From: Aestuariivirga litoralis
GTDB lineage: Bacteria > Pseudomonadota > Alphaproteobacteria > Rhizobiales > Aestuariivirgaceae
Direction: 5' to 3'
Assembly (NCBI RefSeq): GCF_015714715.1
Contig: NZ_WAHS01000001.1
Coordinates: forward strand, 310,001-374,000
DNA length: 64,000 nucleotides
A model generated the notes under the pieces. That model made no database searches and was not told where the DNA came from. It saw nothing but the letters and a program-made list of their open reading frames with translations. This document shows positions 25,498 through 45,709 of this stretch, piece by piece. Every line of letters starts with the position of its first letter. Within the stretch, counting starts at the first letter, position 1. The position numbers were made by a program, and so were the translations under genes.

Positions 25498-25514
25498 GGG
25501 TTAATCTCCGGCAC

Positions 25515-26744: not shown

Positions 26745-26747
26745 GTC

Positions 26748-28741: not shown

Positions 28742-28953
28742 TCTTCAGACCGGCGACGAATATCGGCGCAAATGCATATTGGACAGGCGGTATTTCCCAT
28801 TCCATGAGCGAGGTGCAACGTCTTCTCCCGGGCAGTCTTTTGTTTTTGACTTTCATCCACTGTGCCGGAATTTCTTGAGCGAAGATTTTGAAAGTTTCTC
28901 ACTTTGGGAATTTTCGATAATTTCATCCAGACCCGTTTGGTTAGGATGACCGC
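28742..28953. promoter_or_regulatory. Divergent promoter region between the two catabolic operons
   Basis: These 212 bases separate the leftward E1-alpha operon from the rightward SDR operon. They are AT-richer than the genes and contain the inverted repeat at 28895-28911. The repeat resembles the perfect palindrome in front of the winged-helix/solute-binding regulator, so both operons are probably under that regulator. Confidence 0.6.
28895..28911. promoter_or_regulatory. Operator-like inverted repeat in the divergent promoter
   Basis: TTTCTCACTTTGGGAAT is an imperfect inverted repeat. Its left half TTTCTCA is identical to that of the palindrome at 40381-40397, and its right half TGGGAAT differs from TGAGAAA in two positions. 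A weaker related stretch, TTTCTTGAGCGAAG, starts at 28871. Confidence 0.5.
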
Positions 28954-29730: not shown

Positions 29731-29757
29731 AAAAAAGAAACTTTGGGAGAACGTTCT

Positions 29758-30825
29758 ATGAAGGCAGTGAGGTTTCACGCCGCTAAAGATATCAGGGTTG
29801 AGGATGTTGCCGCGCCTTCCAGCAAGCTGGGGCCGAATGACGTTCTGATCAAGCCCATGGTGACCGGCATCTGTGGCACGGACTTGCATGAATATATTGC
29901 AGGACCCATAGTCACGCCGCAGACCCCTCATGTTTATACGGGCGCCACTAATCCGCAGATTCTGGGACATGAAACCAGCGCGATTGTGGTCGACAAGGGG
30001 TCGGCGGTTACGCATGTAAGAGCGGGTGATCGTATCTCGGTCCAGCCACTGATTTCACCGCGCGATGACTATTACGGCCGCCGCGGCTTGTATCACCTCA
30101 GCGAGAAAATGGGGTGCGTGGGCCTTAGCTGGCCTTGGGGCGGCATGGGTGAACTCGCTGTCGTGAATGACTACAACGTTGCCGTTCTCCCCAAGGGTGT
30201 GAGTGACATTCAAGGTGCGATGATCGAGCCTGCGGCCGTGGCTGTCTACGCGGTGGATCGCGGTCACGTTGCATCCGGTTCAACCGTGCTTGTTTCAGGC
30301 CTTGGACCAATCGGCGCACTCACTTTGCTGGCCGTCAAGGCTGCAGGGGCCTCACAGATTTTTGTCTCTGAGCCCAACGCATTCCGCCGGAAACTGGCCA
30401 AGGAACTGGTGCCCAGCGCCATTATCCTGGATCCAGCCGAAACCGATGTTGTGCAATATATCAAGGAACACACTGAAGAAGGCGTGGGCGTCGATGCGGC
30501 TATTGAATGCGTCGGCCTGGAGAAAAGCCTCAATACCTGCGCGGCGTCGGTGAGACGGCAGGGCCGGGTGGTGCAGACGGGCCTTCATATGAAACCTGCG
30601 AGCATTGATGCGATGCTGTGGGCATTGAAGGACATCACGGTGGAGGCGACGTGGTGTTATCCGGTGCAATGTTGGCCACGCATTATCCGCATGGTGGAGT
30701 CGGGAAATTTTCCGATTGAGAAAATCGTGACTGCCAACATCGATTCCGAACACGTGGTGAAGCAGGGCTTTGATGCACTGCTCGACAAGTCGGTCAATCA
30801 TATGAAAATTCTGGTCACGGTATGA
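29758..30825 (+). CDS. MDR alcohol dehydrogenase, 2,3-butanediol dehydrogenase-like, without structural zinc
   Basis: The product has 355 residues. I chose the ATG at 29758 because GGGAGAA lies six bases upstream. The catalytic zinc ligands are present (GICGTDLHEY, GHET and the later glutamate in IEPAAVAVYAV), and the cofactor fold is at GLGPIGALTLLAV. The loop that normally carries four structural-zinc cysteines reads PLISPRDDYYGRRGLYHLSEK and has none. Overall layout follows 2,3-butanediol/sorbitol dehydrogenases. Its stop overlaps the start of the Gfo/Idh gene (ATGA). Confidence 0.88.
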   Translation: MKAVRFHAAKDIRVEDVAAPSSKLGPNDVLIKPMVTGICGTDLHEYIAGPIVTPQTPHVYTGATNPQILGHETSAIVVDKGSAVTHVRAGDRISVQPLISPRDDYYGRRGLYHLSEKMGCVGLSWPWGGMGELAVVNDYNVAVLPKGVSDIQGAMIEPAAVAVYAVDRGHVASGSTVLVSGLGPIGALTLLAVKAAGASQIFVSEPNAFRRKLAKELVPSAIILDPAETDVVQYIKEHTEEGVGVDAAIECVGLEKSLNTCAASVRRQGRVVQTGLHMKPASIDAMLWALKDITVEATWCYPVQCWPRIIRMVESGNFPIEKIVTANIDSEHVVKQGFDALLDKSVNHMKILVTV

Positions 30826-31844
30826 GCGCGATGACACAGAACAATGTGCCCGTGAAAGTCGCCCTCATCGGCCTCGGTTGGTGGGGCAGGAAAATGACGG
30901 TGGTCCTCCAGAAAGCCCGGCAGGACATTGAGATCGTCTGCGCCGCTGAACCAAATCCCGCAGGCGCCGCGTTTGCCAAGGAGCATGGGTTTCCCTGCTA
31001 TCCGGATGATGCCGCGGCTCTAAAGCATTCGGGCGTTGAGGCGGTAATTCTGGCCACGCCGCATTCACTGCATGCCGAACAAATCGAACGTGCCGTTGCG
31101 GCTCGCAAGCATATCTTCTGTGAGAAACCTTTGGCACTCACGCGCGCGGGCGCGGAAAAGGCTGTCAATGCCTGCGCCGCCAAGAAGCTCGTTCTGGGCA
31201 TGGGCCACGAGCGTCGCTTCGAACCGCCCGTGGCCGCCATGATCGCCGCTGCGCAGAGTGGCGCTTTGGGCCGCCTGTTGCAAATCGAGGCCAATTTCAG
31301 CCATGATAAGTTTGTGAGCCTGGATGCCAGCAATTGGCGGCTCAATCCGGCGGAAGCGCCGGTCGGTGGCATGACCGCGACCGGCATTCACTTGACGGAT
31401 CTTTCCACGCTTCTGCTTGGTCCGGCCCGCGATGTGCGCGTTTCCTGTGAGAAGCTGGCCTCGAATATTCCGCAAGGCGACACAATGAGTGCGCATATTC
31501 GGTTCAAGAACGGCGGCACGGCGTATATTTCTGCCACCCTGGCCACTCCCTTCATCTCGCGCTTCGCGCTGTTCGGCACCAAGGGCTGGATCGACATCCG
31601 CGACAAGGCACATGTGGAATCTCCAGCGGGTTGGGTAGTCACCTCGGCGAATACTGGATCTGAAATCTCGGTGAAGGAAATTCCGCCGGCTGAGCCGGTG
31701 AAAGACAATCTGGTGGCCTTCGCTCACGCTATTCGCGGCAAGGCGGCATACCAGATCACAGGCGAAGAACTGATCAACAATATTTCCATCCTCGAAGCCA
31801 TCATCGCCTCAGCGGCGCAAGATGGCGCGATCGTGAATGTGTAG
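30822..31844 (+). CDS. Gfo/Idh/MocA-family oxidoreductase
   Basis: The product has 340 residues. It has an N-terminal Rossmann fold (VALIGLGWWGRKM), the conserved CEKPLALT motif with the catalytic lysine near 100, and a C-terminal beta-sheet domain with MTATGIHLTDLS carrying the usual histidine/aspartate pair. Members oxidise sugars, inositols or sugar acids with NAD(P). It overlaps the upstream dehydrogenase by four bases and precedes another MDR enzyme by 12 bases, so it belongs to the same pathway. The substrate is unknown. Confidence 0.92.
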   Translation: MSAMTQNNVPVKVALIGLGWWGRKMTVVLQKARQDIEIVCAAEPNPAGAAFAKEHGFPCYPDDAAALKHSGVEAVILATPHSLHAEQIERAVAARKHIFCEKPLALTRAGAEKAVNACAAKKLVLGMGHERRFEPPVAAMIAAAQSGALGRLLQIEANFSHDKFVSLDASNWRLNPAEAPVGGMTATGIHLTDLSTLLLGPARDVRVSCEKLASNIPQGDTMSAHIRFKNGGTAYISATLATPFISRFALFGTKGWIDIRDKAHVESPAGWVVTSANTGSEISVKEIPPAEPVKDNLVAFAHAIRGKAAYQITGEELINNISILEAIIASAAQDGAIVNV

Positions 31845-31856
31845 GGAGCCCGCAGC

Positions 31857-32843
31857 ATGAAAGCGCTCGTTTTCGAAACCCCAGAAAAGCCAGTCATCGT
31901 CGATGTGCCGGTGCCCGGCATCAAGGACACGGAAGTTCTTATCAAGTCCAACACCATCGGCATCTGCCATTCAGACTATGAACTGCTGGGAGGCCGCTAC
32001 ATCGTCCCGATTTCGTATCCTGTCACGCCAGGCCATGAATGGTGCGGCGAGATTGTTGAAGTCGGCAAGTCCGTCAAAGGCTTCAAGAAGGGTGACCGGG
32101 TGGTTGGCGAATGTGTGGTGCGCACGCCAGAACGCCTGCATCACTTCGGCTTCTCGATGGACGGTGCGGACCGTGAATATTTCAACGTCAATCCCGACTG
32201 GCTGCACAAGCTGCCGGACTCGGTTGATGACATGCGTGGATCACTGATTGAGCCGTTTACCTGCGGCTACTATGCCGTGATGCGCTCCGGCGGCACCAAT
32301 GCGTCGGAAACGGTGGTGGTTTCAGGCGGCGGCACCATCGGCCTTGTTACCGCTGCAGCCGCACTTGGCATGGGTGCCCGCGTGATCGTGGCCGATCCCA
32401 TCAAGCGTCGCCGCGACATTGCGATCAAGCTTGGCGCCGAGGCCGTTGATCCCACGGATCGCGGTGCGGACCAGATCAAGGAAATGACGGACGGCAAGGG
32501 TGCTGACCTTGTGGTGGAATGCGCCGGTCATGATGCCTCGCTCGCCGCCGTGTTTGATTACGTTGCGCAGGATGGCCGCATGTCGATGGTGGGTATTAAC
32601 ATTGGCCGTAAGATTTCGGCGCAATTAGGTCTGATGCAGTTGAAGAATTTGACGATCCGCGGCTGCATCGGCTCACCTGGTGTATGGCCCGCCGCCATTC
32701 GCTTCCTGGAACGCACTGGTATTGATCTCTCACCGATCCAGACCCACAAATTTGCGCTCACCGATGCGGTCGAAGCATTCAAGCTGGGGCAGGACCCGCA
32801 GGCGTGCATCAAAGTGACTCTCTCTACAAAAGGATTGAACTGA
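31857..32843 (+). CDS. MDR alcohol dehydrogenase without structural-zinc cysteines
   Basis: The product has 328 residues, short for the sorbitol/alcohol dehydrogenase family. Catalytic zinc ligands are visible in GICHSDYELLGG and TPGHEWCGE, with the glutamate in IEPFTCGYYA. The cofactor motif is SGGGTIGLVTAAAA. After GDRVVGECVVRTPERLH there is no CxxCxxC...C cluster, so the structural-zinc lobe is absent or replaced, as in the other MDR of this operon. The stop TGA shares bases with the next start (TGATG). It probably oxidises a polyol or hydroxy acid. Confidence 0.88.
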   Translation: MKALVFETPEKPVIVDVPVPGIKDTEVLIKSNTIGICHSDYELLGGRYIVPISYPVTPGHEWCGEIVEVGKSVKGFKKGDRVVGECVVRTPERLHHFGFSMDGADREYFNVNPDWLHKLPDSVDDMRGSLIEPFTCGYYAVMRSGGTNASETVVVSGGGTIGLVTAAAALGMGARVIVADPIKRRRDIAIKLGAEAVDPTDRGADQIKEMTDGKGADLVVECAGHDASLAAVFDYVAQDGRMSMVGINIGRKISAQLGLMQLKNLTIRGCIGSPGVWPAAIRFLERTGIDLSPIQTHKFALTDAVEAFKLGQDPQACIKVTLSTKGLN

Positions 32844-33904
32844 TGGAACGCCACGCGCTGATAGCCGGTGTCTCAGGTATCATTGGCCGCCATCTGGCGG
32901 AGCATCTGGCCGCCACCAATGGCTGGAAAGTAACCGGCATTTCGCGTCACAAGCATGACCTGCCCAAGGGCGTGCGGCATATCGCGGTGGACCTGACGGA
33001 TGAAGAAGCGGTGGTCGTCGCTCTGAAAAAGGTGAAGCCCACCGACGTATTCATCACCACCTGGATGCGGCAAGCCACCGAGGCAGAAAATTGCCGCGTC
33101 AATGCCGGCATGGTGCGCAATCTCCTCACCGCGTTGGAAGGCAAGAAGATCAAGCATGCTGCGCTGGTTACTGGTGGCAAGCATTACATGGGCCCTTTCG
33201 AAGCCTATGCGAAGAGCAAACCGCAAACCCCGTTCCGCGAGGAGATGCCGCGACTGCCTTATCAGAACTTCTATTACGATCAGGAAGACGAGCTGTTTGC
33301 CGCTGCCGAAAAACAGGGCTTCAGCTGGTCGGTGCACCGCCCACATACGCTGATCGGCTACACCGTCGGCAACCAGATGAACATGGCGGCCACGCTGGGC
33401 GCCTACGCGGCTATCTGCAAGGAAACTGGAAAGCCTTTCGTGTTTCCGGGGTCACCGCAGCAATTTGAATCCTGCATCGACATCACCGACGGCCGCATCA
33501 TCGCTAAGCAATTGCTCTGGGCGGCAACCAAGCCTGTCGCGCGCAACCAGGCTTTCAACATCGCCAATGGCGAAGTGTTTCGCTGGAACTGGCTGTGGCC
33601 GAAACTCGCGGCCTATTTCGGATTGCCCCACGCGGAATATCCGGGCCACGCCCAGCCGCTCGAAGAGCAGATGAAAGGCATGGAGCCGGTCTGGGACAGG
33701 ATTGTCGCCGAGCATGGATTGCAGAAGAACCCGCTCTCCACTGTGGCCTCCTGGTGGCACAGCGATGCCGATCTCGGCCGCACGATCGAAACATTCAATG
33801 ACATGACCAAGAGCCGCGATATGGGGTTCACCGCCTATCAGAACTCGGTGCGCTCATTCACCGACGCATTCGACAAATTCCGCGCCGAAAAGGTTCTGCC
33901 GTAA
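32843..33904 (+). CDS. PRISE-type SDR (progesterone 5-beta-reductase/iridoid synthase-like)
   Basis: The product has 353 residues. The start at 32843 overlaps the preceding stop (TGATG) and gives MERHALIAGVSGIIGRHLAEHL, the dinucleotide fold. The hallmark PRISE motifs are present: TGGKHYMGP at 110-118 with the catalytic lysine K113, and NFYYDQED at 142-149 with the catalytic tyrosine. PRISE enzymes reduce activated C=C bonds (enones) with NADPH; plant members make cardenolides and iridoids, and bacterial members are poorly characterised. Here it lies between an MDR dehydrogenase and an ABC permease in one operon, which suggests an alpha,beta-unsaturated intermediate in the pathway. Confidence 0.87.
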   Translation: MERHALIAGVSGIIGRHLAEHLAATNGWKVTGISRHKHDLPKGVRHIAVDLTDEEAVVVALKKVKPTDVFITTWMRQATEAENCRVNAGMVRNLLTALEGKKIKHAALVTGGKHYMGPFEAYAKSKPQTPFREEMPRLPYQNFYYDQEDELFAAAEKQGFSWSVHRPHTLIGYTVGNQMNMAATLGAYAAICKETGKPFVFPGSPQQFESCIDITDGRIIAKQLLWAATKPVARNQAFNIANGEVFRWNWLWPKLAAYFGLPHAEYPGHAQPLEEQMKGMEPVWDRIVAEHGLQKNPLSTVASWWHSDADLGRTIETFNDMTKSRDMGFTAYQNSVRSFTDAFDKFRAEKVLP

Positions 33905-33958
33905 CGGCCAGCCCGAAAATGGTTGCCACGAGAGAAAATGAGAGGAAGGAGGGAAAAG

Positions 33959-34960
33959 ATGAACCAAACTGCTGACACGCAAGTGACCATGATGCCGCTG
34001 CGCAACGTCTTGTCCTCGCCACTCAACCGCAGCTTTATGACGGTGATTGGGTCCACTTTGGTCCTGCTCGTCATCTGTGCGATTTTTGCGCCTTCGAGCA
34101 TTTCGCTCGGCGCGCTCTCGGGTAGCCTGCCCTTTGCCGCGATTATTGCGATTGTTGGTCTTGGCCAATTGCTGGTGGTGCAGCAAGGTGGTTTTGACCT
34201 TTCGTTGCCCGGTGCTGTGTCCCTCGCTGTTGTGCAGGCCACGCATTATCCGCAGCAGGATAATGCGCTGCTGTTGCCTGCCATTCTCATTGGCTTGAGC
34301 TTTGCGATTGCCGCCGGCCTTCTCAATGGCATCCTGGTTTCCCTGTTCAGGCTGAATGCCATCATCGCAACCATCGGTGTCAATGCGTTACTCTATGGCG
34401 GGGTGTTTGCGGTTTCTGGAGGCACGCCGAGCATCACCACCGAGTTGCTGGCCGACATTGCCAATGGTGAGATTCTGGGAATACCCAATTCAGTTTATTT
34501 CGCGCTGGTAGCGCTTCTGGTTGCGTCCCTTGTTCTGAAGAAAACTGCAATCGGCCGGCGCTTCGAGGCTATCGGAGCCAACCCGCTGGCCGCCCGCGCG
34601 GTGGGCCTCCCGGTGAAGCTTCACCAGCTGATGGCTTATGTCTATGCGCAGTTACTCTATTGCATGGCGGGGATTCTGATTGCCGGCATCACGCGCGAGC
34701 CCACCGCGTTTCAGGGCGATTCACTTTTGCTGCCCTCCGTGGCGGTGGTGGTGTTGGGTGGCACATCATTGCTGGGCGGCCGCGGCTTTCCGATTTCGAC
34801 GGTGCTCGCCGCTTTCTTTTTAAACCAATTGAGTCAGTTCGCGCTCGCCGTTGGCGTGCCTTACTCGGCTCAAACCATCATCCAGGCCTTGGCCCTGGGT
34901 TTTGGGATCGGCGTCTACTCGGTGCGGTGGACGTTTAACCAGAAGAAGCCAACACAATGA
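33959..34960 (+). CDS. Sugar-type ABC transporter permease (RbsC family)
   Basis: The product has 333 residues. The ATG at 33959 has GGAGGG eight bases upstream; an earlier in-frame ATG would add a basic leader. About nine hydrophobic segments and the family block VAVVVLGGTSLLGGRGFPISTVLAAFFLNQL (~255-285) identify the RbsC/BPD_transp_2 group of inner-membrane permeases. The next genes encode the binding protein and a fused ATPase-permease. This protein therefore probably pairs with the permease half of the fusion as a heterodimer. Confidence 0.92.
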   Translation: MNQTADTQVTMMPLRNVLSSPLNRSFMTVIGSTLVLLVICAIFAPSSISLGALSGSLPFAAIIAIVGLGQLLVVQQGGFDLSLPGAVSLAVVQATHYPQQDNALLLPAILIGLSFAIAAGLLNGILVSLFRLNAIIATIGVNALLYGGVFAVSGGTPSITTELLADIANGEILGIPNSVYFALVALLVASLVLKKTAIGRRFEAIGANPLAARAVGLPVKLHQLMAYVYAQLLYCMAGILIAGITREPTAFQGDSLLLPSVAVVVLGGTSLLGGRGFPISTVLAAFFLNQLSQFALAVGVPYSAQTIIQALALGFGIGVYSVRWTFNQKKPTQ

Positions 34961-34984
34961 CTATAAAAAATGGAGGAAGACAAA

Positions 34985-36055
34985 ATGAAGTTTAAATCTT
35001 TCAAGCAGAAACTGGCGCTCGCAGCAGCGACGACGGTTCTGGCTCTCGGCAGCGCATCGGTGGCGCAGGCTGATGTGCCATCATGGTGCGGTCCAAAGAA
35101 GGCGACACTTGCTTTGCTCGACGGCTATGGCGGCAACAGCTGGCGCCAGGTCACGACGGCCTCGGGCAAGCAGACCGTTTCGCTTTGCCCCAGCATCACC
35201 AGCTATGAATATGCTGACGGCCAGGGCGATACTCAGAAAGCCATTTCGGATATCAAGGGCATTGCTGCAAAAGGCGTGGACGCTCTCGTGGTGTTCGGGG
35301 ATGCGGGGCCTGCCGTGCTGCCTGCCATCACCTCCGTCTTTAAGGCTGGCAAGGTGATCGTGCCTTACCGCGTCAATGTCGGCGGCAAGGAAGGAGAGAA
35401 CTACACGAAGTTCATCGGCTCGTCTTTTGAGAACGATGGTGCCAACTGGGGCAAGTGGATCAAGGGCGTGCTGCCGAAGGGTGGCAACGTTCTGTTCCTC
35501 TCCGGACCTGCCGGCAACAGCCAGGGACTTGATGAACTCAAGGGCCTGAAATCGGTTCTCGGTGCGGAATACAAGTTCATCAACCCGGAACCCTTCGATG
35601 TGACCAACTGGGATCCAGCTCTGACGCAGAAAGTGCTGACGGCGGAAATTGCCAAGAATGACAAGATTGACGTGATCGTGTCGGACTTCGGCCCGTCTCT
35701 GGTGGGCGCATTGCCGCTGTTCAACAAGTCCAACAGATCGATCCCCGCTCTTGCCACCTCTGACGGCAATTCGTTGGGCTGCTTCTGGACGGATAGCCAG
35801 GGCGCTGCCAATCCTGACTTCAAGCTGATGACGGTGGCAACCGGCAACGACAATGTGCGCCTCGCCGTGCAATGGGCCGTAGCCAAGGCTACCGGCGGCA
35901 AGGACCCGGAAGAGAACATCTTCAAGGCTCCCGTGTTTGAAGATTCAGTCTCCGGAACTCCGAGCAAAGTGCAGTGCCGCAAGGACCTGCCGGGCGCGAT
36001 CTACCTGTCATCGGAACTCCCGGCTGATGACCAGGCCAAGGCTGTCGGCAAGTAA
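34985..36055 (+). CDS. Periplasmic sugar-binding protein of the ABC importer
   Basis: The product has 356 residues. GGAGGAAG precedes the ATG at 34985, which begins a signal peptide (MKFKSFKQKLALAAATTVLALGSASVAQA). The mature part has the type I periplasmic-binding fold (ALLDGYGGNSWRQV, AISDIKGIAAKGVDALVVFGD, LFLSGPAGNSQGLDELKG). It has three cysteines (SWCGPKK, LCPSI, QCRKDLPG). It should deliver the substrate to the permeases encoded on either side. The ligand class is sugar-like but not identified. Confidence 0.92.
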   Translation: MKFKSFKQKLALAAATTVLALGSASVAQADVPSWCGPKKATLALLDGYGGNSWRQVTTASGKQTVSLCPSITSYEYADGQGDTQKAISDIKGIAAKGVDALVVFGDAGPAVLPAITSVFKAGKVIVPYRVNVGGKEGENYTKFIGSSFENDGANWGKWIKGVLPKGGNVLFLSGPAGNSQGLDELKGLKSVLGAEYKFINPEPFDVTNWDPALTQKVLTAEIAKNDKIDVIVSDFGPSLVGALPLFNKSNRSIPALATSDGNSLGCFWTDSQGAANPDFKLMTVATGNDNVRLAVQWAVAKATGGKDPEENIFKAPVFEDSVSGTPSKVQCRKDLPGAIYLSSELPADDQAKAVGK

Positions 36056-36063
36056 GTGAGTAA

Positions 36064-36098
36064 GCGCCCCGGAGGTCGACTCCCTTCCTCCGGGGTGC
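36064..36098 (+). terminator. Intercistronic hairpin after the binding-protein gene
   Basis: The arms 36064-36075 and 36087-36098 pair over 12 positions (core CCCCGGAGG / CCTCCGGGG) around an 11-base loop. Only a weak T-rich tail follows. Such a hairpin after a binding-protein gene often protects the upstream mRNA and lowers expression of the genes beyond it. Confidence 0.7.
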
Positions 36099-36120
36099 AT
36101 TTCTAAACGGAATGCGTTAA

Positions 36121-38634
36121 GTGGCCGCGAAAAGCGAAAAACTGAAAATTGATGCTGCGCCACCGCATGGCGAGCTGGCCATACGGCTGTCCAATATCTC
36201 GAAATTTTATTCCGGTGTGCCAGCCTTGCGTGATGTCAGCGTGGAATTCTACGCTGGCGAAGTTCATGCCATCCTTGGCGAGAATGGCGCCGGCAAATCG
36301 ACTTTGATGAATATCATATCCGGCGCAGGCTATCCCGAACTGGGTGAAATCTGGGTTGACGGTAGACGGATTTCACAAATGTCGCCGGAAATCGCCACAT
36401 CACTCGGCATCGCCATTTCCTTCCAGCACCCTGCCGTTCTGGATGATCTGTCCGTTCTGGAAAACCTGCTGGTCGCCTTGCCACGTGCGCTCTTTTCCGA
36501 GGGATCGGAGCAGGGCGTAGCTCAGGCGCTGCTGGACACGGTGGGCTTGAATGTGCCTCTACGTATGCGCGCCGATGAATTGTCGGTGGCGCAGAAACAT
36601 CTTCTCGAAATTGCGAAGGCCCTGGCCATCAAGCCGAAGGTTCTGATCCTTGATGAGCCCACGGCGTCCCTCGACCAGGATGCGACCGACATGCTGTTCG
36701 CGCGCATCCGCGAGGTTGTGAAGGGGGGCACTTCGGTGATTTACATCACCCACCGTCTGGCCGAAGTGCGCCAGATTGCCCAGCGTGTCACTGTGTTGCG
36801 TGACGGACGCGTGCGAGGCGGCGGATTGGTCAAAGATTTCGGTGATGCCGAGATCCTGGCCATGATCGTGGGCCGCACCCTGGGCTCGGCCTTTCCGCCG
36901 AAGGCCAGCGGCAACGCGCAGGATGTGATCCTCGCTGTCAAAGCGCTCAGCGCCAAGGATTTCAAGGACGTGTCCTTTGACGTTGCGCGCGGCCACATTG
37001 TGGGTGTGGCGGGTGTGGCGGGCAATGGCCAATCCGAGTTAATGCGTGCCCTTGCAGGCCTGCTCACCTCCGAGGGCACGATCTCGCTGAGCGGACGCAA
37101 ACTGCAAAGCCGGGAGCTGCTGCAAGAAGCAGCCTTCATGCCGTCTGACCGACACGGCGAAGGTCTGGCCTCGGGCCTCACAGTGCGCGAAAATGCATCC
37201 TTTGCTGCCCTCGACAGGTTTTCCTCCTTCCGCATCATGAGCTGGAGAAAGGAGCTGGCGCATGTCAGCGAGACCTTCGGTGCGCTGGCTGTGAAAGCGC
37301 CCAGTATTGAAGCGCCCATCCTGTCGCTTTCCGGCGGCAACCAGCAGAAGGTCGTGATGTCACGCGCACTGCTTTCTGAGCCGGGTTTGATCATTGCCGA
37401 TGAACCAACGCAGGGTGTTGACGTCGGGGCCCGCGCTGAAATTTACCGCATCCTGCGCGAGGTTTCGAATTCCGGCACCCCCGTCATTGTGAACTCGTCG
37501 GACGCAGCGGAACTGGAGGGCCTTTGCGACACAGTGGTTGTGCTGTCGCGCGGTCGTGTGGTGGAAACCCTTACGGGCGAAGATGTCTCTGAAGCGCGCA
37601 TTGTGGCCGCAGCGGTCAATGCCAGCACCCATGTCGGCGAAAGTGCTTTGGCGCGGGCAGGTCGCACGGCGGCCAATGGCTGGCGGCATTTCCTGCAATC
37701 CGACAATGCGACCGCTGCACCCTTGGCGATGGTGATCGTGCTGCTCGGGCTTTATGTCTTTGGGCAGAACTCAAACTTCCTTTCGTCCTTCAATATCTAC
37801 AACATTCTCATGCTGGCTACTGCGCTCGGCTTCATTGCCTTGGGGCAAACAATTGCATTATTGATGGGTGCGATCGATTTGTCTGTGGGACCACTTGCCG
37901 GGTTCCTGGTCGTAGTTGCGTCCTTCTTCATCAATGATTACAAATCCATTGGCATGATGACGCTGGGTTTTGTGCTGATGTTTGCGGGCGCATTCATCGT
38001 GGGGGCGGTCAACGGCATTCTCATTCGCTTTGCGAATTTCACAGCGATTGCTGCCACGCTTGCCATGTATATCGGCTTGCAGGGATTGAGCTTCGTGCTG
38101 CGCGACAATCCGGATGGCTATATCAACAACAAGGTCATGGAGATCGTGACCTGGCAATTGGGGCCGATGCCCGCGGCGTTCCTCGCGCTGGTGGCCGTAG
38201 CACTAGTGGGCGAATACATTCTGCGTAAATCTGGCCCAGGCTGGCGCCTCCGCGCCACCGGATCAGATGAAGAGTCTGCAAGGCGCATCGGCGTATGGGT
38301 TGACGGCACTTACGTCGCCGGCTTCATTGCCTGTTCGCTTTTGACTGCCTTGGGCGCTGTGATGTTGATGACGCAGATCGGAGTAGGCGACCCGCGGCAA
38401 GGCATCAACTACACCCTGTCGAGCATCACGGCGGTGGTCCTGGGAGGGACCAGTTTGCGCGGCGGTCGTGGCACATTTATTGGCACGGTGCTGGGTGCGG
38501 TGCTCCTCACTGAAGTGCTCAATGCCGTGTCCTTCCTCGGCCTGACCCAGATGTATCAATATATTTTCCAAGGTGCATTGGTGGTGGTCGCGGCACTGAT
38601 CTATTCAACCGTGCGCCGACGCGCCAGCACCTAG
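36121..38634 (+). CDS. Fused sugar ABC transporter: two ATPase domains plus permease
   Basis: The product has 837 residues and begins with GTG. Residues ~20-510 are a double ATPase of the RbsA/MglA type. The first P-loop is GENGAGKST (53-61) with LDEPTASLDQ; the second half has the degenerate loop GVAGNGQSELM (~298), the signature LSGGNQQK (~402) and ADEPTQGVD (~425). From ~525 the sequence is an RbsC-type permease with many hydrophobic segments and AVVLGGTSLRGGRGTFIGTVLGA. RbsA and RbsC are usually separate proteins, so this is a real fusion with no stop or frameshift. With the separate permease at 33959 it supplies exactly two ATPase and two membrane domains. Confidence 0.92.
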   Translation: MAAKSEKLKIDAAPPHGELAIRLSNISKFYSGVPALRDVSVEFYAGEVHAILGENGAGKSTLMNIISGAGYPELGEIWVDGRRISQMSPEIATSLGIAISFQHPAVLDDLSVLENLLVALPRALFSEGSEQGVAQALLDTVGLNVPLRMRADELSVAQKHLLEIAKALAIKPKVLILDEPTASLDQDATDMLFARIREVVKGGTSVIYITHRLAEVRQIAQRVTVLRDGRVRGGGLVKDFGDAEILAMIVGRTLGSAFPPKASGNAQDVILAVKALSAKDFKDVSFDVARGHIVGVAGVAGNGQSELMRALAGLLTSEGTISLSGRKLQSRELLQEAAFMPSDRHGEGLASGLTVRENASFAALDRFSSFRIMSWRKELAHVSETFGALAVKAPSIEAPILSLSGGNQQKVVMSRALLSEPGLIIADEPTQGVDVGARAEIYRILREVSNSGTPVIVNSSDAAELEGLCDTVVVLSRGRVVETLTGEDVSEARIVAAAVNASTHVGESALARAGRTAANGWRHFLQSDNATAAPLAMVIVLLGLYVFGQNSNFLSSFNIYNILMLATALGFIALGQTIALLMGAIDLSVGPLAGFLVVVASFFINDYKSIGMMTLGFVLMFAGAFIVGAVNGILIRFANFTAIAATLAMYIGLQGLSFVLRDNPDGYINNKVMEIVTWQLGPMPAAFLALVAVALVGEYILRKSGPGWRLRATGSDEESARRIGVWVDGTYVAGFIACSLLTALGAVMLMTQIGVGDPRQGINYTLSSITAVVLGGTSLRGGRGTFIGTVLGAVLLTEVLNAVSFLGLTQMYQYIFQGALVVVAALIYSTVRRRAST

Positions 38635-40334
38635 TAGTAGCCGGCCTCGCGCATCGCAGCGTCGATGCGGTTCTGGCTTCGGGCCAGCGCCACTTCGTCC
38701 GAGCAATCGCCGTTGAGGGCGGCGAAAATTTCTTCGCCCAATATTTCCTCAATCAAGTGATATTCAGGGATCGGCGGCCGCTGCCAGTTCTGGATCTTGT
38801 TCTGTTTGGCCAGCCTGTCCACGAAACTCACAATGGGCGTGGATGCCGCTGCTTCAGGATCGGCGCTCACACTGAAGCGCGGCGCGACCGGGAAGCCGTT
38901 CTTCACGTATTCCTTCATGGCTGAGGGCGAAGCCATCCAGGAGATGGCCTCAAAGGCGAGGCGGGCGCGCTCGGGTGGCAACGATTCCGGCACCATCAAC
39001 AGAAAACCGCCGATCGGCGAAACGGTGGTGCCGCCTGGGCCATGCGGATGCGGGAAATACGCGACCTTGCGTTTTACCAGCGAGTGAATGTCGTATTCAA
39101 AGCGCGCGGCGCGCATGGTCCAGCAATAGATCATCGCCGCTTGCCCACCGAGGAAGTAGTTGAGCGCTTTGTTCCAGTCGATCGACAGTATGTCCGGCGG
39201 CGAGAAGGCTAGCAGCTCATGCATGTATTTCAGGGTCTGCCGGCCCGACTCGCTCAAGATTCGAGGCCGCATCGCCTCACCCTTTAACTTGCTGTAGTCA
39301 ACATGCAGACGCGGCGAGGGAATGTCGATGACCGGTCCTCCGCAACATCCCATAAAGAACATGAAGGAGTGCGAGACTGGCATGCCTTTGGCCGCGTTCC
39401 ATACCACGCCTTGCATGCCGCGCTTAGGGTTGTGCAGTGCGCGCGCGGCATCAATCACCTTGTCGAAAGTAGTGGGGTGCGTGAGTCCGCGCTCCTCAAA
39501 CAGGTCCTTACGGATGGAGAGAGCTTCAATGGTGCAGTAGATGGGAATGCCGAATTGTGTTTGGCTCCAATTCCCGGTGGCCCAGATGTTCGGATGGAAA
39601 TCGAGCGGGTTGATGCTGCTGCTTTTTAGGAACTCGGTGAGTGGTTGCGCCACACCGCCCGCAACAGCTTCTCCGAGCCACGGCATGTTGATGGCAATGA
39701 CGTCATACTGGCTTTCCTTGCGCCGGGCATTGGCGAACACTTCCTCGCGCAATTCGGGCAGATTCAGCAGTTTGAAATTCTTGCGGGCGATCAGCTTGGA
39801 ACGGAAATCCGACCACATATCGCGCATCGAGGCGAAATAGTTATCGTCGTGCAGAAGGAAGCGCAGATCGGGTCCCGCGTCCTTTTTCTTCTCCATGATT
39901 TCTAACGGCGGGATGATCTGGCCAGCGAAATAGGATCCGCCAAAATAATAGTCCTCCGAGTCCGAACTTCCGCTTTTCAGCCCGAACGTGTCGGCCAGCA
40001 GTGCCTTCACCCGTGTGGCATAATCCGTGAAGCTGATCGCCAGCTTGCGACTGGGCTCCACATAGTGCGACTTGCCGGCGTCGCCGCGCTTCCTTAGTTG
40101 GATGTCGCCAGTTTCAATCAGTTTGTGGATGCGGCGCATGGCACTGGCGAAGGGCACACCTGCGGCTGACGCTAGCGAAGACATGGTGACATTCTCGCCG
40201 CGCAGATGAACTTTCATCAGATAGAGGATCATGTTCCAGTTGGCGTCGGGCTCGGCTGGCTTCAGCAGCTTGTCATAGGGCGAGCGCATGCGTTCCAGAA
40301 ACGTGATGATGCGCAAAAGCTCGTATTCGGTCAT
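38631..40334 (-). CDS. Winged-helix protein fused to a cytoplasmic solute-binding domain (putative regulator)
   Basis: The product has 567 residues from the ATG at 40334. Residues ~34-105 form a winged helix-turn-helix (NWNMILYLMKVHLRGENVT, SLASAAGVPFASAMRRIHKLIETGDIQLRKRG). Residues ~130-567 are a family-1 (MalE-like) extracellular solute-binding domain: YDVIAINMPWLGEAVAGGVAQPL, IPIYCTIEALSIRKDLFEERG, YFLGGQAAMIYCW and SPIGGFLLMVPESLPPERARLAFEAISWM. There is no signal peptide or membrane segment, so the binding domain must face the cytoplasm. This suggests a one-component sensor that binds an imported ligand and controls transcription. It converges on the ABC operon (4-base overlap of the ends) and is divergent from the VOC gene. 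A perfect palindrome lies in its promoter. Confidence 0.82.
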   Translation of the reverse strand: MTEYELLRIITFLERMRSPYDKLLKPAEPDANWNMILYLMKVHLRGENVTMSSLASAAGVPFASAMRRIHKLIETGDIQLRKRGDAGKSHYVEPSRKLAISFTDYATRVKALLADTFGLKSGSSDSEDYYFGGSYFAGQIIPPLEIMEKKKDAGPDLRFLLHDDNYFASMRDMWSDFRSKLIARKNFKLLNLPELREEVFANARRKESQYDVIAINMPWLGEAVAGGVAQPLTEFLKSSSINPLDFHPNIWATGNWSQTQFGIPIYCTIEALSIRKDLFEERGLTHPTTFDKVIDAARALHNPKRGMQGVVWNAAKGMPVSHSFMFFMGCCGGPVIDIPSPRLHVDYSKLKGEAMRPRILSESGRQTLKYMHELLAFSPPDILSIDWNKALNYFLGGQAAMIYCWTMRAARFEYDIHSLVKRKVAYFPHPHGPGGTTVSPIGGFLLMVPESLPPERARLAFEAISWMASPSAMKEYVKNGFPVAPRFSVSADPEAAASTPIVSFVDRLAKQNKIQNWQRPPIPEYHLIEEILGEEIFAALNGDCSDEVALARSQNRIDAAMREAGYY

Positions 40335-40380
40335 GACGCCCGCTTTCTGATACGGCACCAATCTATCCGGAATTTAAGAA

Positions 40381-40397
40381 TTTCTCAAATTGAGAAA
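40381..40397. promoter_or_regulatory. Perfect palindrome in the regulator/VOC divergent promoter
   Basis: TTTCTCAAATTGAGAAA has two perfect 8-base arms around a single central A. It lies 47 bases upstream of the regulator start and 72 bases upstream of the VOC gene. It is a good candidate for the operator of the winged-helix regulator, which would then control itself. Confidence 0.65.
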
Positions 40398-40468: not shown

Positions 40469-40984
40469 ATGGCAGAACACATTTACGGCATGCATCACAT
40501 TGGCATCACGGTGCCCAACATTGATGAAGGGATCTCTTTCTTCAAAGCAGTCTTCGGAACAGTCGAGGTGTTTCGCACCGGCCCATTTGATGTTGATGAG
40601 ACTTTCATGCAACGCAGGCTGGGAGCCGGCCCTGGCACCAAGATCCGCGATCTGGTCTTTCTGAAGTGCGGGGCGGGCACAAATTTGGAACTGTTCGAAT
40701 ACAGCGGCGAAGACAGCAAGGCGAGGCCCAAGCGCAACTCGGAGATTGGTGGCACGCATCTCTGCTTCGAAGTCGAGGATGTTGTCGCTTCAGCCGCAAG
40801 GTTGCGGGCGCAAGGTATTGAGATGTTGGACGGCCCAAACTTGGTTGAAGACGGGCCGCTCGCAGGCTTTCATTGGGTCTATTTCAACACGCCTTGGGGG
40901 CAGTCGTTGGAGATAGCGAGTTTTGAAAGCTTGGGTTACGAGAAGACCTCAAAACATCGCCTTTGGAGAGCAAAAGCAGATTAG
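40469..40984 (+). CDS. VOC-superfamily (glyoxalase-like) protein
   Basis: The product has 171 residues from an ATG with GGAGGAAAT just upstream. Two beta-alpha-beta-beta-beta repeats are visible. The first starts MHHIGITVPNIDEGISFF and the second ends HWVYFNTPWGQSLEIASF. Possible metal ligands are H9/H10, E74 (NLELFEY), H96 (GTHLCFEV) and E148 (SLEIAS). VOC members include isomerases, epimerases, dioxygenases and lyases, so the reaction is open. It is the last gene of the first island segment, divergent from the regulator, and probably shares its operator. Confidence 0.88.
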   Translation: MAEHIYGMHHIGITVPNIDEGISFFKAVFGTVEVFRTGPFDVDETFMQRRLGAGPGTKIRDLVFLKCGAGTNLELFEYSGEDSKARPKRNSEIGGTHLCFEVEDVVASAARLRAQGIEMLDGPNLVEDGPLAGFHWVYFNTPWGQSLEIASFESLGYEKTSKHRLWRAKAD

Positions 40985-41321: not shown

Positions 41322-42353
41322 TCAGTATATGTTTTCCGGAGTGTATATTTCGAATGGCAGGGAAATCGACTGTGGCGGATACTCAGCACCGTTATCAAAT
41401 GTTCTGATCATCGCGCTGACCATTTCCGAGGCCAACTGGGGCAGGGGATGCGATACAAGAAAGTTTAGTGTTCCGTCCAACAGGCCTGCACGGGTGACCT
41501 CGGTCAAATCGTAGCCGACAGCAACGATATCTTTCGAACGCCCACTGCTGCGCAATGCATTCAGCGCTCCAGAAACACCACCTCCTGAAATGAGGAGCCC
41601 CAACAGATCCGGATGCTTGGCCAGGATATCTTCGGTGACTTCTTGCGCGATACTTGCTGTTTCAAAAGTTGACTGGGCCTCCAGGAGTTCGAAGCCGTTC
41701 GCGTGCTCGCGAAAGTATGACCGAAACCCGCTTTCGTTGGTCTCTTGGCAGCGATAGCGGTGGTTGCCGACCAGAATGCCGATTTTCCCTGGTCGCTTGC
41801 AAATATTGTCGATGGCCCAACCCGCAACGCGCCCCACTTTCCAGGCATCCAGACCAACGTAGCCAACATTGCACCTGGCCGTGAGCTGGGAGATGATTGC
41901 GAACACCTTGATGCCTCTAGCAGACAGCTCCTCTATTGCTGCTGACACGATGGGATGCTCAGTAGAAACGACTCCAATCACATCGCATTGCTCCGCGAGT
42001 TTATGAATTCCTGCAGCAACATTCTGCGCCGAAAGTTCATCGAGGAACTCAATTCGTGTCATCACCTCGTGATCGCGTGACGCCAACGCGGCCGCTTCAA
42101 TGGCCTTTGCAAGGTCGCGATAGAGTGTGCGATGGCGTTGGAGGAGCAATATCCCCACCCTGACTTTCGGACGGCCTAAACGCAATCCTTGCTTCAACGT
42201 AGCTGTGCCATAAAAACCTACAGATTCAGCAGCTTGCAGAACCTGCTTTAGGGTTTCTTCGCGCAACTTGTGAGGCTCATGGAGAGCCCTGTTCACGGTC
42301 GAAACAGAGAGTTTCGCGGCTTTTGCAACATGGGGAATTGTGGCGCGTGCCAT
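41322..42353 (-). CDS. LacI-family transcriptional regulator
   Basis: The product has 343 residues from the second ATG (MARATIPHV). The LacI helix-turn-helix and hinge are clear (IPHVAKAAKLSVSTVNRALHEPHKLREETLKQVLQAAESVGF). The remainder is a type I periplasmic-binding-like effector domain, which would bind a sugar or cyclitol. It is divergent from the hydroxylase gene at 42540, and the gap of 186 bases must hold both promoters. It probably controls the catabolic operon to its right. No convincing operator could be picked out by eye. Confidence 0.92.
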   Translation of the reverse strand: MARATIPHVAKAAKLSVSTVNRALHEPHKLREETLKQVLQAAESVGFYGTATLKQGLRLGRPKVRVGILLLQRHRTLYRDLAKAIEAAALASRDHEVMTRIEFLDELSAQNVAAGIHKLAEQCDVIGVVSTEHPIVSAAIEELSARGIKVFAIISQLTARCNVGYVGLDAWKVGRVAGWAIDNICKRPGKIGILVGNHRYRCQETNESGFRSYFREHANGFELLEAQSTFETASIAQEVTEDILAKHPDLLGLLISGGGVSGALNALRSSGRSKDIVAVGYDLTEVTRAGLLDGTLNFLVSHPLPQLASEMVSAMIRTFDNGAEYPPQSISLPFEIYTPENIY

Positions 42354-42539
42354 TGTCCGTCCTCGCTTCAAAACATCTCAGCAGCTCGATTTCTAACTTG
42401 AATTTCTTTGATACGAAATGAGCAGATTCCACTCACCATCATTGCATCCGTTGAATTCGAAATGCAACGTTCATTCCAACAAAATCTGACACGGCACAAA
42501 TATTCCGCCGAAGTCGAGTGCGCTTTCAGGGAAGAAGAA

Positions 42540-43559
42540 ATGGACGACCTGCAATTTGGGACAAGGAACAAGCGTGGCGATTGGGCACCGAATGCTCATC
42601 CGCAGATCGCATTCTTTTGGACCAAACCCTTCGACCTCAAGAAGTGGGTAGGTTTCATAATCGGCTACATCTGGCCTTGGAATGTCTTTCATATGGCCAT
42701 CACGCTCCTCTACTGGCGTTACATTCTTCCGGATTGGGAAGTGATGAAGACGCTGAGCTGGAGTTGGGCTCTCTGGCTTTATGCTGTGAACGGCGCCGGC
42801 ATTTTCCTGATGTATGGTTCCATCGAGCTTTTCTTTTACCGAAAGCGCAAGCAAGGCACCCGCTTTAAATACAACGGCAAGTTCCCTTCCGAGCAACCGT
42901 CGGACGTGTTCTGGTTCAAAAGCCAGAACATCGACAACTTCTTGCGCACATACGTTTCGGGCATAACGATGTGGACGCTGGTCGAAGTGATCATGCTGTG
43001 GTGCTACGCCAACCACTACGTCTATTGGCTCAATTGGTCCGATCATCCCGTTTGGCTCACGGTATTGCTCCTGGCGACGCCGATGATCCACGAGGTCAAC
43101 TTCTTCGTCATCCACCGCGCCATTCACATTCCGTTTTTCTATAAGTGGATTCATTCGGTGCACCACAATTCGGTGAACCCTTCGCCCTGGTCATCCCTTT
43201 CGATGCATCCCATCGAGACCTTCCTGTATCATGGAGTGGTTTGGTGGCATCTGATCCTGCCGTCCAATCCTCTCATCGCGCTTTTCCAACTCCACATGGC
43301 GGGATACGGCGCAGTGAACGGGCACATTGGCTTCGACAAGCTTGAGCTCACGGAAGGTGCCTCGCTCGATAGCCATGCCTACCTGCATTACCTGCATCAC
43401 AAGCATTTCGAAGTGAACTACGGCGGCGACGGATTGATACCGCTCGATAAGTGGTTCGGCACTTGGCACGACGGCACCAAAGAAGCGCAAGCGCTCATGG
43501 ATGCGCGTTACGAGAAAAAGATTGCACGCATGAATGCGCGCCAAAAACAGAATTCATGA
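42540..43559 (+). CDS. Membrane fatty-acid-hydroxylase/sterol-desaturase family di-iron enzyme
   Basis: The product has 339 residues. I chose the ATG at 42540 because AGGGAAG lies just upstream; the longer frame has no ribosome site. Four to five hydrophobic segments are present. The histidine boxes that bind two irons are visible: HEVNFFVIHRAIH at 184-196, HSVHH at 205-209 and HYLHHKH near 283-289. Family members use oxygen to hydroxylate or desaturate lipids or small substrates and need an electron donor. The MocE-like Rieske ferredoxin encoded five genes downstream is the obvious candidate. The first gene of the LacI-controlled operon is thus probably an oxygenase that opens the pathway. 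Confidence 0.88.
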   Translation: MDDLQFGTRNKRGDWAPNAHPQIAFFWTKPFDLKKWVGFIIGYIWPWNVFHMAITLLYWRYILPDWEVMKTLSWSWALWLYAVNGAGIFLMYGSIELFFYRKRKQGTRFKYNGKFPSEQPSDVFWFKSQNIDNFLRTYVSGITMWTLVEVIMLWCYANHYVYWLNWSDHPVWLTVLLLATPMIHEVNFFVIHRAIHIPFFYKWIHSVHHNSVNPSPWSSLSMHPIETFLYHGVVWWHLILPSNPLIALFQLHMAGYGAVNGHIGFDKLELTEGASLDSHAYLHYLHHKHFEVNYGGDGLIPLDKWFGTWHDGTKEAQALMDARYEKKIARMNARQKQNS

Positions 43560-43602
43560 GAACATGAATCCGTCGTGAGACGGTAAACAGGAGGGAACTG
43601 AA

Positions 43603-44577
43603 ATGAAGAAATTGAACGCTCTATTGGTCGCTCTGGCGACCACCGCGACCATCGCCCTCGGGGCAACGGCAGCGCATAGCGCCAACATTGCCGTGGTTGG
43701 TGGTTCGAACGACGACGCTTTTTGGAACTTGATCAAGAAGGGCCTGGACGATGCCACGCCTGCAATCAAAGCCAACGGCGGCTCGGTGAACTATCTTCGT
43801 CTGCAAAATTACGACAACTTTGCGCCTGACGTTGTTCAACTGATCCGCACCGCCATCAGCCAGAAGGTTGACGGTCTGGTTATCCCAAATTGGGTTCCTG
43901 AATCGGAAGACCCTGCGATCAAGGACGCAATCAAGGCCGGTATCAAGGTCATCTTGATGAATGCCGGTGGTGCAGAAAAAGCCAAGGAGCTTGGCGCGAT
44001 CAACTATGTTGGTTCTGACGAATATGTTGCCGGTGTTGCAGGTGGCGACTACTTCGGCGCGCATGGCTCGAAGAATGTCATTTGCGTTAACACTCTGCCG
44101 GGCGCTGCGAACACCGAGTCACGCTGCAAAGGCGTGATCGAAGGCGTAACGAAGGCGGGTGGCAAAGGTGCGCAATTGCCCTTGCCGACATCAAGCTTTG
44201 GCAATGCTACGGCAGTTGCCGAGGCCATCAAGGCAGAACTGATCAAGGACAAGACAATTGACGGTGTGATCACGATTGCTGCTGGTGACGCAGACTCTGC
44301 TGCTATCGGCATTCAGCAGGCGGGCCTGACGGAAAAAACCAAGTTGGGCACGTTCGATCTCAATAAAGCCGGTCTCGACCGCATTAAGAGCGGCAAGCAG
44401 GCCTTCGCCATCGACCAGCAACCGTATCTGCAAGGCTACCTGGCAACGAGCATTCTCGCATCTGCAATCGATTTCGGCACCGACTTGCCAACAAATCCGG
44501 TCCTGACAGGCCCTGGCATTGTCGACGCATCGAATATCGATGCCACGCTGGCCGGTGTCGCAAAAGGCGCACGCTGA
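43603..44577 (+). CDS. Periplasmic sugar-binding protein (RbsB-like)
   Basis: The product has 324 residues with a signal peptide (MKKLNALLVALATTATIALGATAAHS) and the type I periplasmic-binding fold. IAVVGGSNDDAFWNLIKKGLDDA is at the start of the mature protein, then NYVGSDEYVAGVAGGDYF, GVITIAAGDADSAAIG and the hinge region KQAFAIDQQPYLQGYLAT near 265-285. AGGAGGGAACTGAA precedes the ATG. It delivers a sugar or cyclitol to the permease and ATPase encoded downstream, after a hairpin. Confidence 0.93.
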   Translation: MKKLNALLVALATTATIALGATAAHSANIAVVGGSNDDAFWNLIKKGLDDATPAIKANGGSVNYLRLQNYDNFAPDVVQLIRTAISQKVDGLVIPNWVPESEDPAIKDAIKAGIKVILMNAGGAEKAKELGAINYVGSDEYVAGVAGGDYFGAHGSKNVICVNTLPGAANTESRCKGVIEGVTKAGGKGAQLPLPTSSFGNATAVAEAIKAELIKDKTIDGVITIAAGDADSAAIGIQQAGLTEKTKLGTFDLNKAGLDRIKSGKQAFAIDQQPYLQGYLATSILASAIDFGTDLPTNPVLTGPGIVDASNIDATLAGVAKGAR

Positions 44578-44584
44578 TACTTGT

Positions 44585-44613
44585 GGCCCGGGTGGTTATC
44601 CCGGGCCCTTTTT
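44585..44613 (+). terminator. Terminator-like hairpin between binding protein and permease
   Basis: GGCCCGGG and CCCGGGCC form a perfect 8-bp stem around TGGTTAT, followed by CTTTTT. It is a good intrinsic terminator and probably gives partial read-through, leaving more binding protein than permease. It also shows that the permease start cannot lie at the GTG at 44583. Confidence 0.8.
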
Positions 44614-44666
44614 CAATCTCAAGAAACGTGTCAGCTAGAATTCTGACAATATCCAGGGAGGCGAAC

Positions 44667-45701
44667 TTGACTGCCAGTGCGAATACACGTCCATCATTCG
44701 GTGGTCTGTTCAGAAGGCCAGAAACGGGGGCATTCTTTGGACTCCTCGCCGTTCTCTGCTTCTTCACCATTTTTGGTGGGTTGAACTTTCTCGACATCAA
44801 CGGCGGCCTTTCGAGCTGGCTCAACGTCGCTGCCAATCTTGGGATTATCTCCATCCCCCTGGGACTTTTGATGATCGCAGGTGAGCTGGACATCTCAGTA
44901 GGGGCGATGGTCCCCGCGGGCGCAATGATCACTGCGGTAATTGCCGGGCATTATCATCTCCCAATTTGGCTTGGCATCGTTGCCACCCTCAGTTTTGGTG
45001 TGGTCGTTGGCCTCGTCAATGGCATCCTCATCGTTCGCACTGCAGTGCCGTCACTGATTGTTACGTTGGGTTCGCTTTTCTCAGTGCAGGGAATTCTGCT
45101 AGGATTGACGGTGCTGATCACCAAATCTACCAACGTGGCCCTGACGACTGAAGGCATCGCCAAGCCGATGTTTGGGGATTTTGTGGAGCTCGGTGGACTG
45201 TTTCCCCCCGGCCAACTTCAAGTCTCGGTCTTGTGGTGGTTTTTGTTCACGGCTGGCTACATCTATCTCTTGCACTATTCTCCGTTGGGAAACTGGATTT
45301 TGGCGATGGGTGGCGACAAGGTTAGCGCCCGAAACGCTGGCATTCCCACGTCTAAGTTGACCATAGCGCTCTTTGTTTTCTCGGCCGTGTCTGCTTCGTT
45401 TGTGGGAATGTGCCAGGCCATTCTCTTCAATTCTGCGCAAGTCGGCGGAGGGCAATCATTCATCTTCAATTCCATCATTGCTGTAGTCATTGGCGGAGTG
45501 CTTCTCACAGGCGGCTTTGGCTCGGTGATCGGAATCTTTTTTGGGACCATCACTTTCGCAATCGTGAGCCAGGGCATTTACTACACTAACTTTGATCGGA
45601 ACTGGTCGAGCCTCATCATTGGTGTCTTGTTGTTGGCAGCCGTCCTCATGAACAACACGTTCCGCAATGCTGCGCTTTCATATGCGCCCAAGAAAAAGTG
45701 A
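44667..45701 (+). CDS. Sugar-type ABC transporter permease (TTG start)
   Basis: The product has 344 residues. The most likely start is the TTG at 44667, because AGGGAGG lies five bases upstream and every earlier start would fall in or before the terminator hairpin. The protein has about ten hydrophobic segments and the RbsC-family blocks MIAGELDISVGAMVPAGAM near 78 and VVIGGVLLTGGFGSVIGIFFGTI near 270-295. With the single ATPase downstream it should form a homodimeric importer. Confidence 0.92.
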   Translation: MTASANTRPSFGGLFRRPETGAFFGLLAVLCFFTIFGGLNFLDINGGLSSWLNVAANLGIISIPLGLLMIAGELDISVGAMVPAGAMITAVIAGHYHLPIWLGIVATLSFGVVVGLVNGILIVRTAVPSLIVTLGSLFSVQGILLGLTVLITKSTNVALTTEGIAKPMFGDFVELGGLFPPGQLQVSVLWWFLFTAGYIYLLHYSPLGNWILAMGGDKVSARNAGIPTSKLTIALFVFSAVSASFVGMCQAILFNSAQVGGGQSFIFNSIIAVVIGGVLLTGGFGSVIGIFFGTITFAIVSQGIYYTNFDRNWSSLIIGVLLLAAVLMNNTFRNAALSYAPKKK

Positions 45702-45709
45702 GAACGGCC

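Follow-up and report, generated by a model that had tools for sequence, protein, structure and literature searches.

The closest described counterpart of the protein considered here is SgrR of Escherichia coli, which, together with its homologue DsvR of Vibrio cholerae, is presented in the accessible part of the source (PMC13060122) as having a predicted N-terminal helix-turn-helix (HTH) and a C-terminal SBP_bac_5 solute-binding domain. The same general layout, with an HTH at the N terminus, a solute-binding domain at the C terminus, a probable role as one regulator in the cytoplasm and a link to sugar metabolism, is found in a 567-amino-acid protein, here named REG, that is encoded at 38631–40334 on the minus strand of a 64,000-nucleotide stretch of the Aestuariivirga litoralis genome (the window). 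We consider it highly probable that REG controls transcription as a one-component protein of the cytoplasm, in which a MarR-type winged helix acts on a 15-bp palindrome and a MalE-type domain senses a sugar- or polyol-like ligand, with derepression as the most likely outcome. The SgrR_N model (PF12793) matches E. coli SgrR at an E value of 2e-43 and finds no match in REG up to E 10, and SBP_bac_5 (PF00496) matches SgrR at 2.2e-21 and is absent from REG, which carries SBP_bac_1 instead. Given that both SgrR domain tests failed and that hhalign gave a low probability for the pair (2.8% for the whole proteins, 18% when the comparison is limited to the N-terminal domain), we reject membership of REG in the SgrR family; REG is a separate variant of a design with earlier examples. 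The initial annotation of this DNA, which regarded a cytoplasmic solute-binding sensor as an undescribed class, was therefore too broad as to the general layout, known from SgrR and DsvR, but holds in that both modules of REG, its genomic surroundings and its operator are different. It had also named a prior description of the same architecture as a point that would count against it; searches of an open-access library yielded no title or start of an abstract that describes a winged helix joined to a family-1 solute-binding domain, most subscription papers lying outside that scope.

Other known systems share single traits with REG. Regulators of the LacI/GalR type likewise reuse a periplasmic-binding-type fold to sense a cytoplasmic ligand, but LacI proteins combine the LacI HTH with a type I sensor (Peripla_BP families), and neither is matched in REG up to E 1. 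The MarR family has in common with REG the winged-helix fold and a palindromic target that overlaps a promoter; MarR proteins are short and sense inside the same domain, whereas in REG sensing would fall to a domain of its own, 414 residues long. Response regulators with a C-terminal MarR-like domain provide the nearest non-REG match to a profile of the REG N-terminal domain in our survey of the class, yet carry a receiver domain (in all three that were scanned) in place of the solute-binding domain. The binding proteins of CUT1 importers, such as 5iai (Arad_9887) and the secreted protein of locus L028 (handles of this kind are ours), are homologous to the REG sensor domain and, unlike REG, are secreted and lack a DNA-binding domain. 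Fusions of GntR-type domains to binding proteins in Firmicutes are a possible further precedent. Finally, the design idea is shared with synthetic chimeras of binding proteins and DNA-binding domains, which, in the accessible part of the source (PMC6079105), are engineered, whereas REG is natural and has its own predicted operators.

The open frame on the minus strand spans 38631–40361, and we place the start at the ATG at 40334 because M1 and T2 are invariant in a 14-sequence alignment. On the basis of domain matches and structure prediction, a DNA-binding domain and a sensor domain lie on one soluble polypeptide, as in one-component regulators. In the full-length model (14-sequence alignment), helices at residues 31–44, 51–57 and 62–74 and strands at 78–82 and 90–94 have block values of pLDDT (a per-residue model confidence) between 70 and 90, and the N-terminal 119 residues modelled alone (15 sequences) reach a mean of 84. 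We read these elements as a winged HTH at residues 31–94 (40053–40244, minus strand), with a predicted recognition helix at 62–75 (40110–40151, minus), the first residues of which vary with operator type, and a long helix at 96–117 (39984–40049, minus) that may serve in dimerization; the initial annotation had put the winged helix at 34–105, close to this placement. MarR-type proteins make up most of the 50 best Foldseek matches of the N-terminal model, at weak scores (best E 9.2e-4, the only match at ≤0.001; TM approximately 0.4–0.6), and a profile search with the domain returned TubR at 8.6e-5 and several MarR chains. Across 27 members of the REG family, Pfam touches MarR_2 in 17 (best 2.3e-4) and HTH_IclR in 7 (best 2.2e-7); in REG of the window no MarR model is matched at E 1, the only DNA-binding match being HTH_15 at 0.024, and PADLOC gives one weak match at 39–86. 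As modelled, the predicted winged helix is probably of the MarR type. A YYFGG motif in the linker (residues 129–133; 39936–39950, minus) is invariant in the 14-sequence alignment and retained in many, not all, distant members.

The remainder of the protein (residues 154–567; 38634–39875, minus) is a family-1 (MalE-type) solute-binding domain by Pfam, sequence search of the PDB and alignment: SBP_bac_1 is matched at 2.4e-22 (80.8 bits, above the cutoff of 26), SBP_bac_8 at 1.4e-14, and the best PDB sequence, 5iai, aligns over residues 154–554 at 3.6e-32. SBP_bac_1 is present in all 27 family members. The joining of a DNA-binding N terminus to a full family-1 solute-binding domain, which the initial annotation had read from the letters, is thus borne out by the SBP_bac_1 match and the predicted winged helix. 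The fold of this half rests on sequence because its model is poor (253 of 567 residues at pLDDT <50 with the 14-sequence alignment). The 50 best Foldseek matches of the whole model include solute-binding proteins or entries with titles suggesting a maltose-binding protein fusion tag, at TM 0.26–0.37 to the query and a root-mean-square deviation of 18–22, which agrees with the sequence result and is not independent proof of the sensor fold.

A palindrome between REG and the divergent VOC gene (40381–40397, core TTCTCA-N3-TGAGAA at 40382–40396, no strand assigned; type A) overlaps the predicted −35 element of REG (40388–40383). Its role as the target of REG, already suggested in the initial annotation, is supported by enrichment in the gene cluster, and we regard it as a likely operator; motif scans place a second, with one mismatch, between the E1-alpha and SDR (short-chain dehydrogenase/reductase) operons (28896–28910). 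The exact palindrome is rare genome-wide. In 15 genomes (that of the window and those of L001–L014) there are ten perfect sites, eight of them in the REG cluster: the window's own, six upstream of REG (genomes of L006, L007, L008, L009, L010 and L012) and one upstream of SDR (genome of L003); the two away from the cluster belong to the L008 and L012 genomes. A binomial estimate for eight of ten, with a 40-kb cluster per genome, is 6e-16, which overstates the strength because the genomes are related. With up to one mismatch the sites number 69, the ten perfect ones included, and at least 23 of these lie by cluster genes or their homologues (38 surroundings inspected: 23 by the cluster and 15 elsewhere, two of the latter with a weak homologue nearby). 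All four such sites in the L011 genome fall within approximately 28 kb, and none lies by the cluster in Polaromonas (L014). Among 37 same-genus genomes (including the window's and one matching L006), four of five perfect sites are in the cluster; in two of those four genomes REG was not detected. When half-sites are ranked by the number of loci in which they occur, TTCTCA comes first in the window's clade (clade A; 13 of 14 loci). A control palindrome, TTCTCT-N3-AGAGAA, has two perfect sites in 38 genomes, of which 24 are the window's and same-genus genomes, so that the comparison with the 15 is unmatched.

From these observations we infer how REG might work. In the window's clade the winged helix, probably as a dimer, would bind TTCTCA-N3-TGAGAA at the promoter of REG itself and at those that drive the linked operons for the importer and the sugar/polyol dehydrogenases. 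The MalE-type domain, probably derived from a binding protein that was once secreted and had its signal peptide exchanged for the winged helix, would close on a cytoplasmic sugar- or polyol-like molecule, either the compound that is imported or one formed early from it, and this closure would alter DNA binding, most likely relieving repression. REG would be a regulator of the sugar/polyol cluster and probably an autorepressor, and the overlap of the operator with the predicted −35 element fits autorepression. The same overlap counts against a role as activator, in which the ligand-bound form would raise the importer and dehydrogenase operons and limit its own expression; we think this unlikely, although likely operators are also present between the divergently transcribed E1-alpha and SDR/ADH1 genes and SgrR, of similar layout, activates sgrS (in the accessible part of PMC4021124).

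The proposal that REG acts on a palindrome can be followed beyond clade A. The stretches upstream of distant REG members contain words similar to TATCCA-N3-TGGATA (type B), a palindrome that matches type A in layout and in its placement in the cluster. In 14 plasmid records (11.8 Mb), all three perfect type-B sites are in the REG cluster; with up to one mismatch 11 of 22 are, one inside a permease gene, and three of the records have no site at this threshold. A cross-test at one mismatch yields 16 type-A and no type-B sites in 14 clade-A loci, and one type-A and 13 type-B sites in 19 other REG loci. In 13 hold-out REG loci, which were not used in motif finding, 14 type-B-like sites with up to two mismatches occur in 43.5 kb (in 9 of the 13 loci), against a background of 4 sites in 187.6 kb from 52 non-REG loci. 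Within the hold-out set, the three loci of one AT-rich genus (L099, L100 and L101) have a perfect TATTCA-N3-TGAATA near the REG start, for which shuffled sequences of order 1 give a mean of 0 to 0.007 per locus. Pairs of type-B sites exactly 21 bp apart are found in 9 of 33 loci (15 counts, against ≤3 for any other spacing), and two dimers on the same face of the DNA would explain them; the mean score by offset does not single out 21 bp (best at −15 and −13, then −21 and +21).

Residues 61–64, at the start of the recognition helix in the model, are PF(A/P)S in clade A, mostly PYAT in the other members of the 27-member alignment (also PYTT, PHAT, PKTT, PYST, TYGT, SYGT and PRTS) and PFAT in the TATTCA group. 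Thus F62/S64 goes with TTCTCA, mostly Y62/T64 with TATCCA and F62/T64 with TATTCA. That operator type and recognition helix shift together is only suggestive because, on the tree, every such change corresponds to a single event.

Several observations weigh against REG as the binder of these palindromes. Two same-genus genomes, G015 (C306, L092) and G029 (C316, L093), have a perfect palindrome at E1-alpha/ADH1 and no REG that we could find, their assemblies being fragmented (90% and 79% complete); L001 and L013 lack a site at REG, the one-mismatch copies in their genomes lying near E1-alpha or ADH1; loose matches with three mismatches number 21 in the window for 24.7 expected, which is not above chance; and a consensus search found no promoter at the E1-alpha/SDR site. 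For type B, TATCCA is outside the top 12 half-sites of its loci, in which GC-rich words lead, 4 of the 13 hold-out loci have no type-B-like site at two mismatches, and related loci are not independent samples. The two genomes in which REG was not detected would suit an arrangement in which the palindromes serve another regulator of the cluster and REG has a different role. We give this little credence, as the palindrome type tracks the REG clade and the recognition-helix residues, the LacI-type gene of the window (at 41322) has no counterpart by tblastn in 22 other REG loci, and three annotated stretches (L055, L056 and L086) list no other transcription regulator, in gene tables that are incomplete.

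Alignment of the sensor domain to a trehalose/maltose-binding protein points to four pocket positions, which we take to be ligand contacts: N216 (N or D in 26 of 27 members), W405 (W, Y or H in all 27), F444 (F or Y in 26) and R519 (kept in 26). A working ligand site is likely because these positions are mostly kept. That this pocket was mapped by alignment alone leaves some room for a ligand-free domain that serves as a scaffold or protein contact, an idea that we find improbable in view of conservation over 27 members down to 26% identity. The matched structure 5iai was, we presume, solved with ribitol.

Most annotated plasmid copies of REG carry the name ‘extracellular solute-binding protein’, yet an exported binding protein with an unusual N terminus can be dismissed as most improbable, given that the N-terminal domain is conserved, has a predicted winged-helix fold and shows no apparent signal peptide. 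The winged helix occupies the position that a signal peptide has in exported binding proteins, and the export signal typical of family-1 solute-binding proteins is not apparent: by a crude measure, the most hydrophobic 15-mer in residues 1–150 scores 1.27, against 1.84 and 2.31 in two secreted binding proteins, in agreement with the initial annotation, which saw no signal peptide. The relative at L052 reaches 2.07 within its winged helix, which limits this measure. No strongly hydrophobic 19-mer occurs anywhere in REG.

Most relatives that share the REG layout come from Alphaproteobacteria, and the distribution of the family is patchy. A scan of the genome collection yielded 14 relatives from 30 candidate stretches (50–84% identity; 13 full length and one ended by a contig edge). 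Among plasmid records, 655 have a REG match, 35 of them at ≥80% query coverage; 18 of 19 plasmid regions examined encode the fusion, the other (L058) a secreted-type binding protein, and a match at 98% coverage (H35) was rejected as a secreted-type binding protein with an upstream stop. Within the window's taxonomic family, matches starting at residue 1 or 2 occur in 6 of 69 genomes, among them G036 with three copies. Long-frame members (E ≤2e-29) are picked up by the N-domain profile in 9 genomes out of 387 from the class and in 7 out of 397 from the phylum, one of the 7 lying outside the class; two genomes are positive in both sets. Betaproteobacterial copies are those of L014 (the Polaromonas genome) and L059, and a phage search gave no REG match. 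L099, L100 and L101 belong to AT-rich genomes of approximately 1.4 Mb, presumably SAR11-like, each with a REG copy. Weaker profile matches have other layouts: all three scanned with Pfam consist of a receiver domain and a C-terminal MarR-like winged helix, and the rest were judged by eye (L122 being a short separate protein). REG-like winged helices form the C-terminal output of alphaproteobacterial proteins among L103–L123.

A tree of 52 sensor domains (66 rows minus 14 near-duplicate binding proteins) has all 35 REG rows on one side of one branch, with support of 57/63, and groups REG with the secreted-type L028 at 100/99. The L028 protein is 33% identical to REG over residues 154–567 and has a secreted-like start, and by eye the next frame is permease-like. 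A single origin of the fusion is no more than compatible with this tree, given the support of that separating branch, and the simplest reading is that a winged helix replaced the signal peptide, perhaps once. We rejected, as the source of the sensor, the CUT1 binding proteins encoded next to REG today on an Agrobacterium and an Aminobacter plasmid, which gave no match and a weak match, respectively. With less assurance than for the regulator itself, we lean towards REG as the founder of a separate sensor family: a CUT1-type binding protein would have moved to the cytoplasm, perhaps once, by exchanging its signal peptide for a winged helix related to response-regulator outputs; spread patchily in the Alphaproteobacteria with rare copies in other classes; and co-evolved operator and recognition helix through three types, with two dimers two helical turns apart in one clade and with the import and sensing of one nutrient entrusted to unrelated receptors.

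The genes around REG bear on the nature of that nutrient. Adjoining REG on the plus strand is a CUT2-type importer (33923–38634; Pfam, similarity and tblastn) made up of a permease (by similarity), a Peripla_BP_4 binding protein and an ATPase–permease fusion; the binding protein is by Pfam of a fold unrelated to the REG sensor, as the initial annotation had noted. The fusion (36121–38634) is a single chain of 837 amino acids that unites the double ATPase with a permease, and similar long frames are seen in L001 and L013. At lower coordinates lie genes for an SDR, a zinc-dependent alcohol dehydrogenase, a Gfo/Idh protein, a second zinc-dependent alcohol dehydrogenase and an epimerase-type SDR (28954–33904, plus) and, divergently, E1-alpha, E1-beta and E2 of a complex of the 2-oxo-acid dehydrogenase type with an M24 family protein (24241–28741, minus; both groups by domain matches and tblastn). 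The gene divergent from REG encodes a VOC (glyoxalase-fold) protein (40469–40984, plus; Pfam and tblastn), homologues of which are near REG in several relatives. Beside the cluster, at 41322–46507, the LacI-type regulator carries a Peripla_BP_4 sensor and is accompanied by a membrane protein and by another importer of the CUT2 type, which again has a Peripla_BP_4 binding protein of its own; the product of 48476–49468 exceeds the cutoff for the inositol 2-dehydrogenase IolG.

When 17 genes of the window were compared by tblastn with the 22 other REG loci, parts of the CUT2 importer were found in 16; several of the remaining loci are short contigs, and that of L011 has its importer in the adjoining stretch. 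Four loci from Mesorhizobium have REG in divergent orientation to the E1-alpha/E1-beta/E2/M24 genes, followed by the importer, SDR, alcohol dehydrogenase and Gfo/Idh genes, and Roseobacter-group plasmids have the importer on one side of REG and the E1/E2 operon on the other. On two plasmids a CUT1 importer adjoins REG, instead of or besides CUT2. The cluster gains an intradiol dioxygenase and a maleylacetate reductase on Rhizobium and Sinorhizobium plasmids; this pair, seen on some Rhizobiales plasmids (L052, L082, L084 and L088), is a hint of a ring compound. The enzymes of the cluster suggest a sugar, polyol or cyclitol as the substrate.

If REG and its relatives are regulators as proposed, then public databases apparently list gene switches under the name of secreted transport proteins, and both the switches and the genes that they control escape notice. 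As a naturally occurring equivalent of the chimeras built in synthetic biology, REG comes with predicted operators that make the idea directly testable. The successive operator types, with their recognition helices, would amount to a natural experiment on the change of DNA specificity and, if the reading of REG as a separate family is true, the import and the sensing of one nutrient use unrelated receptors.

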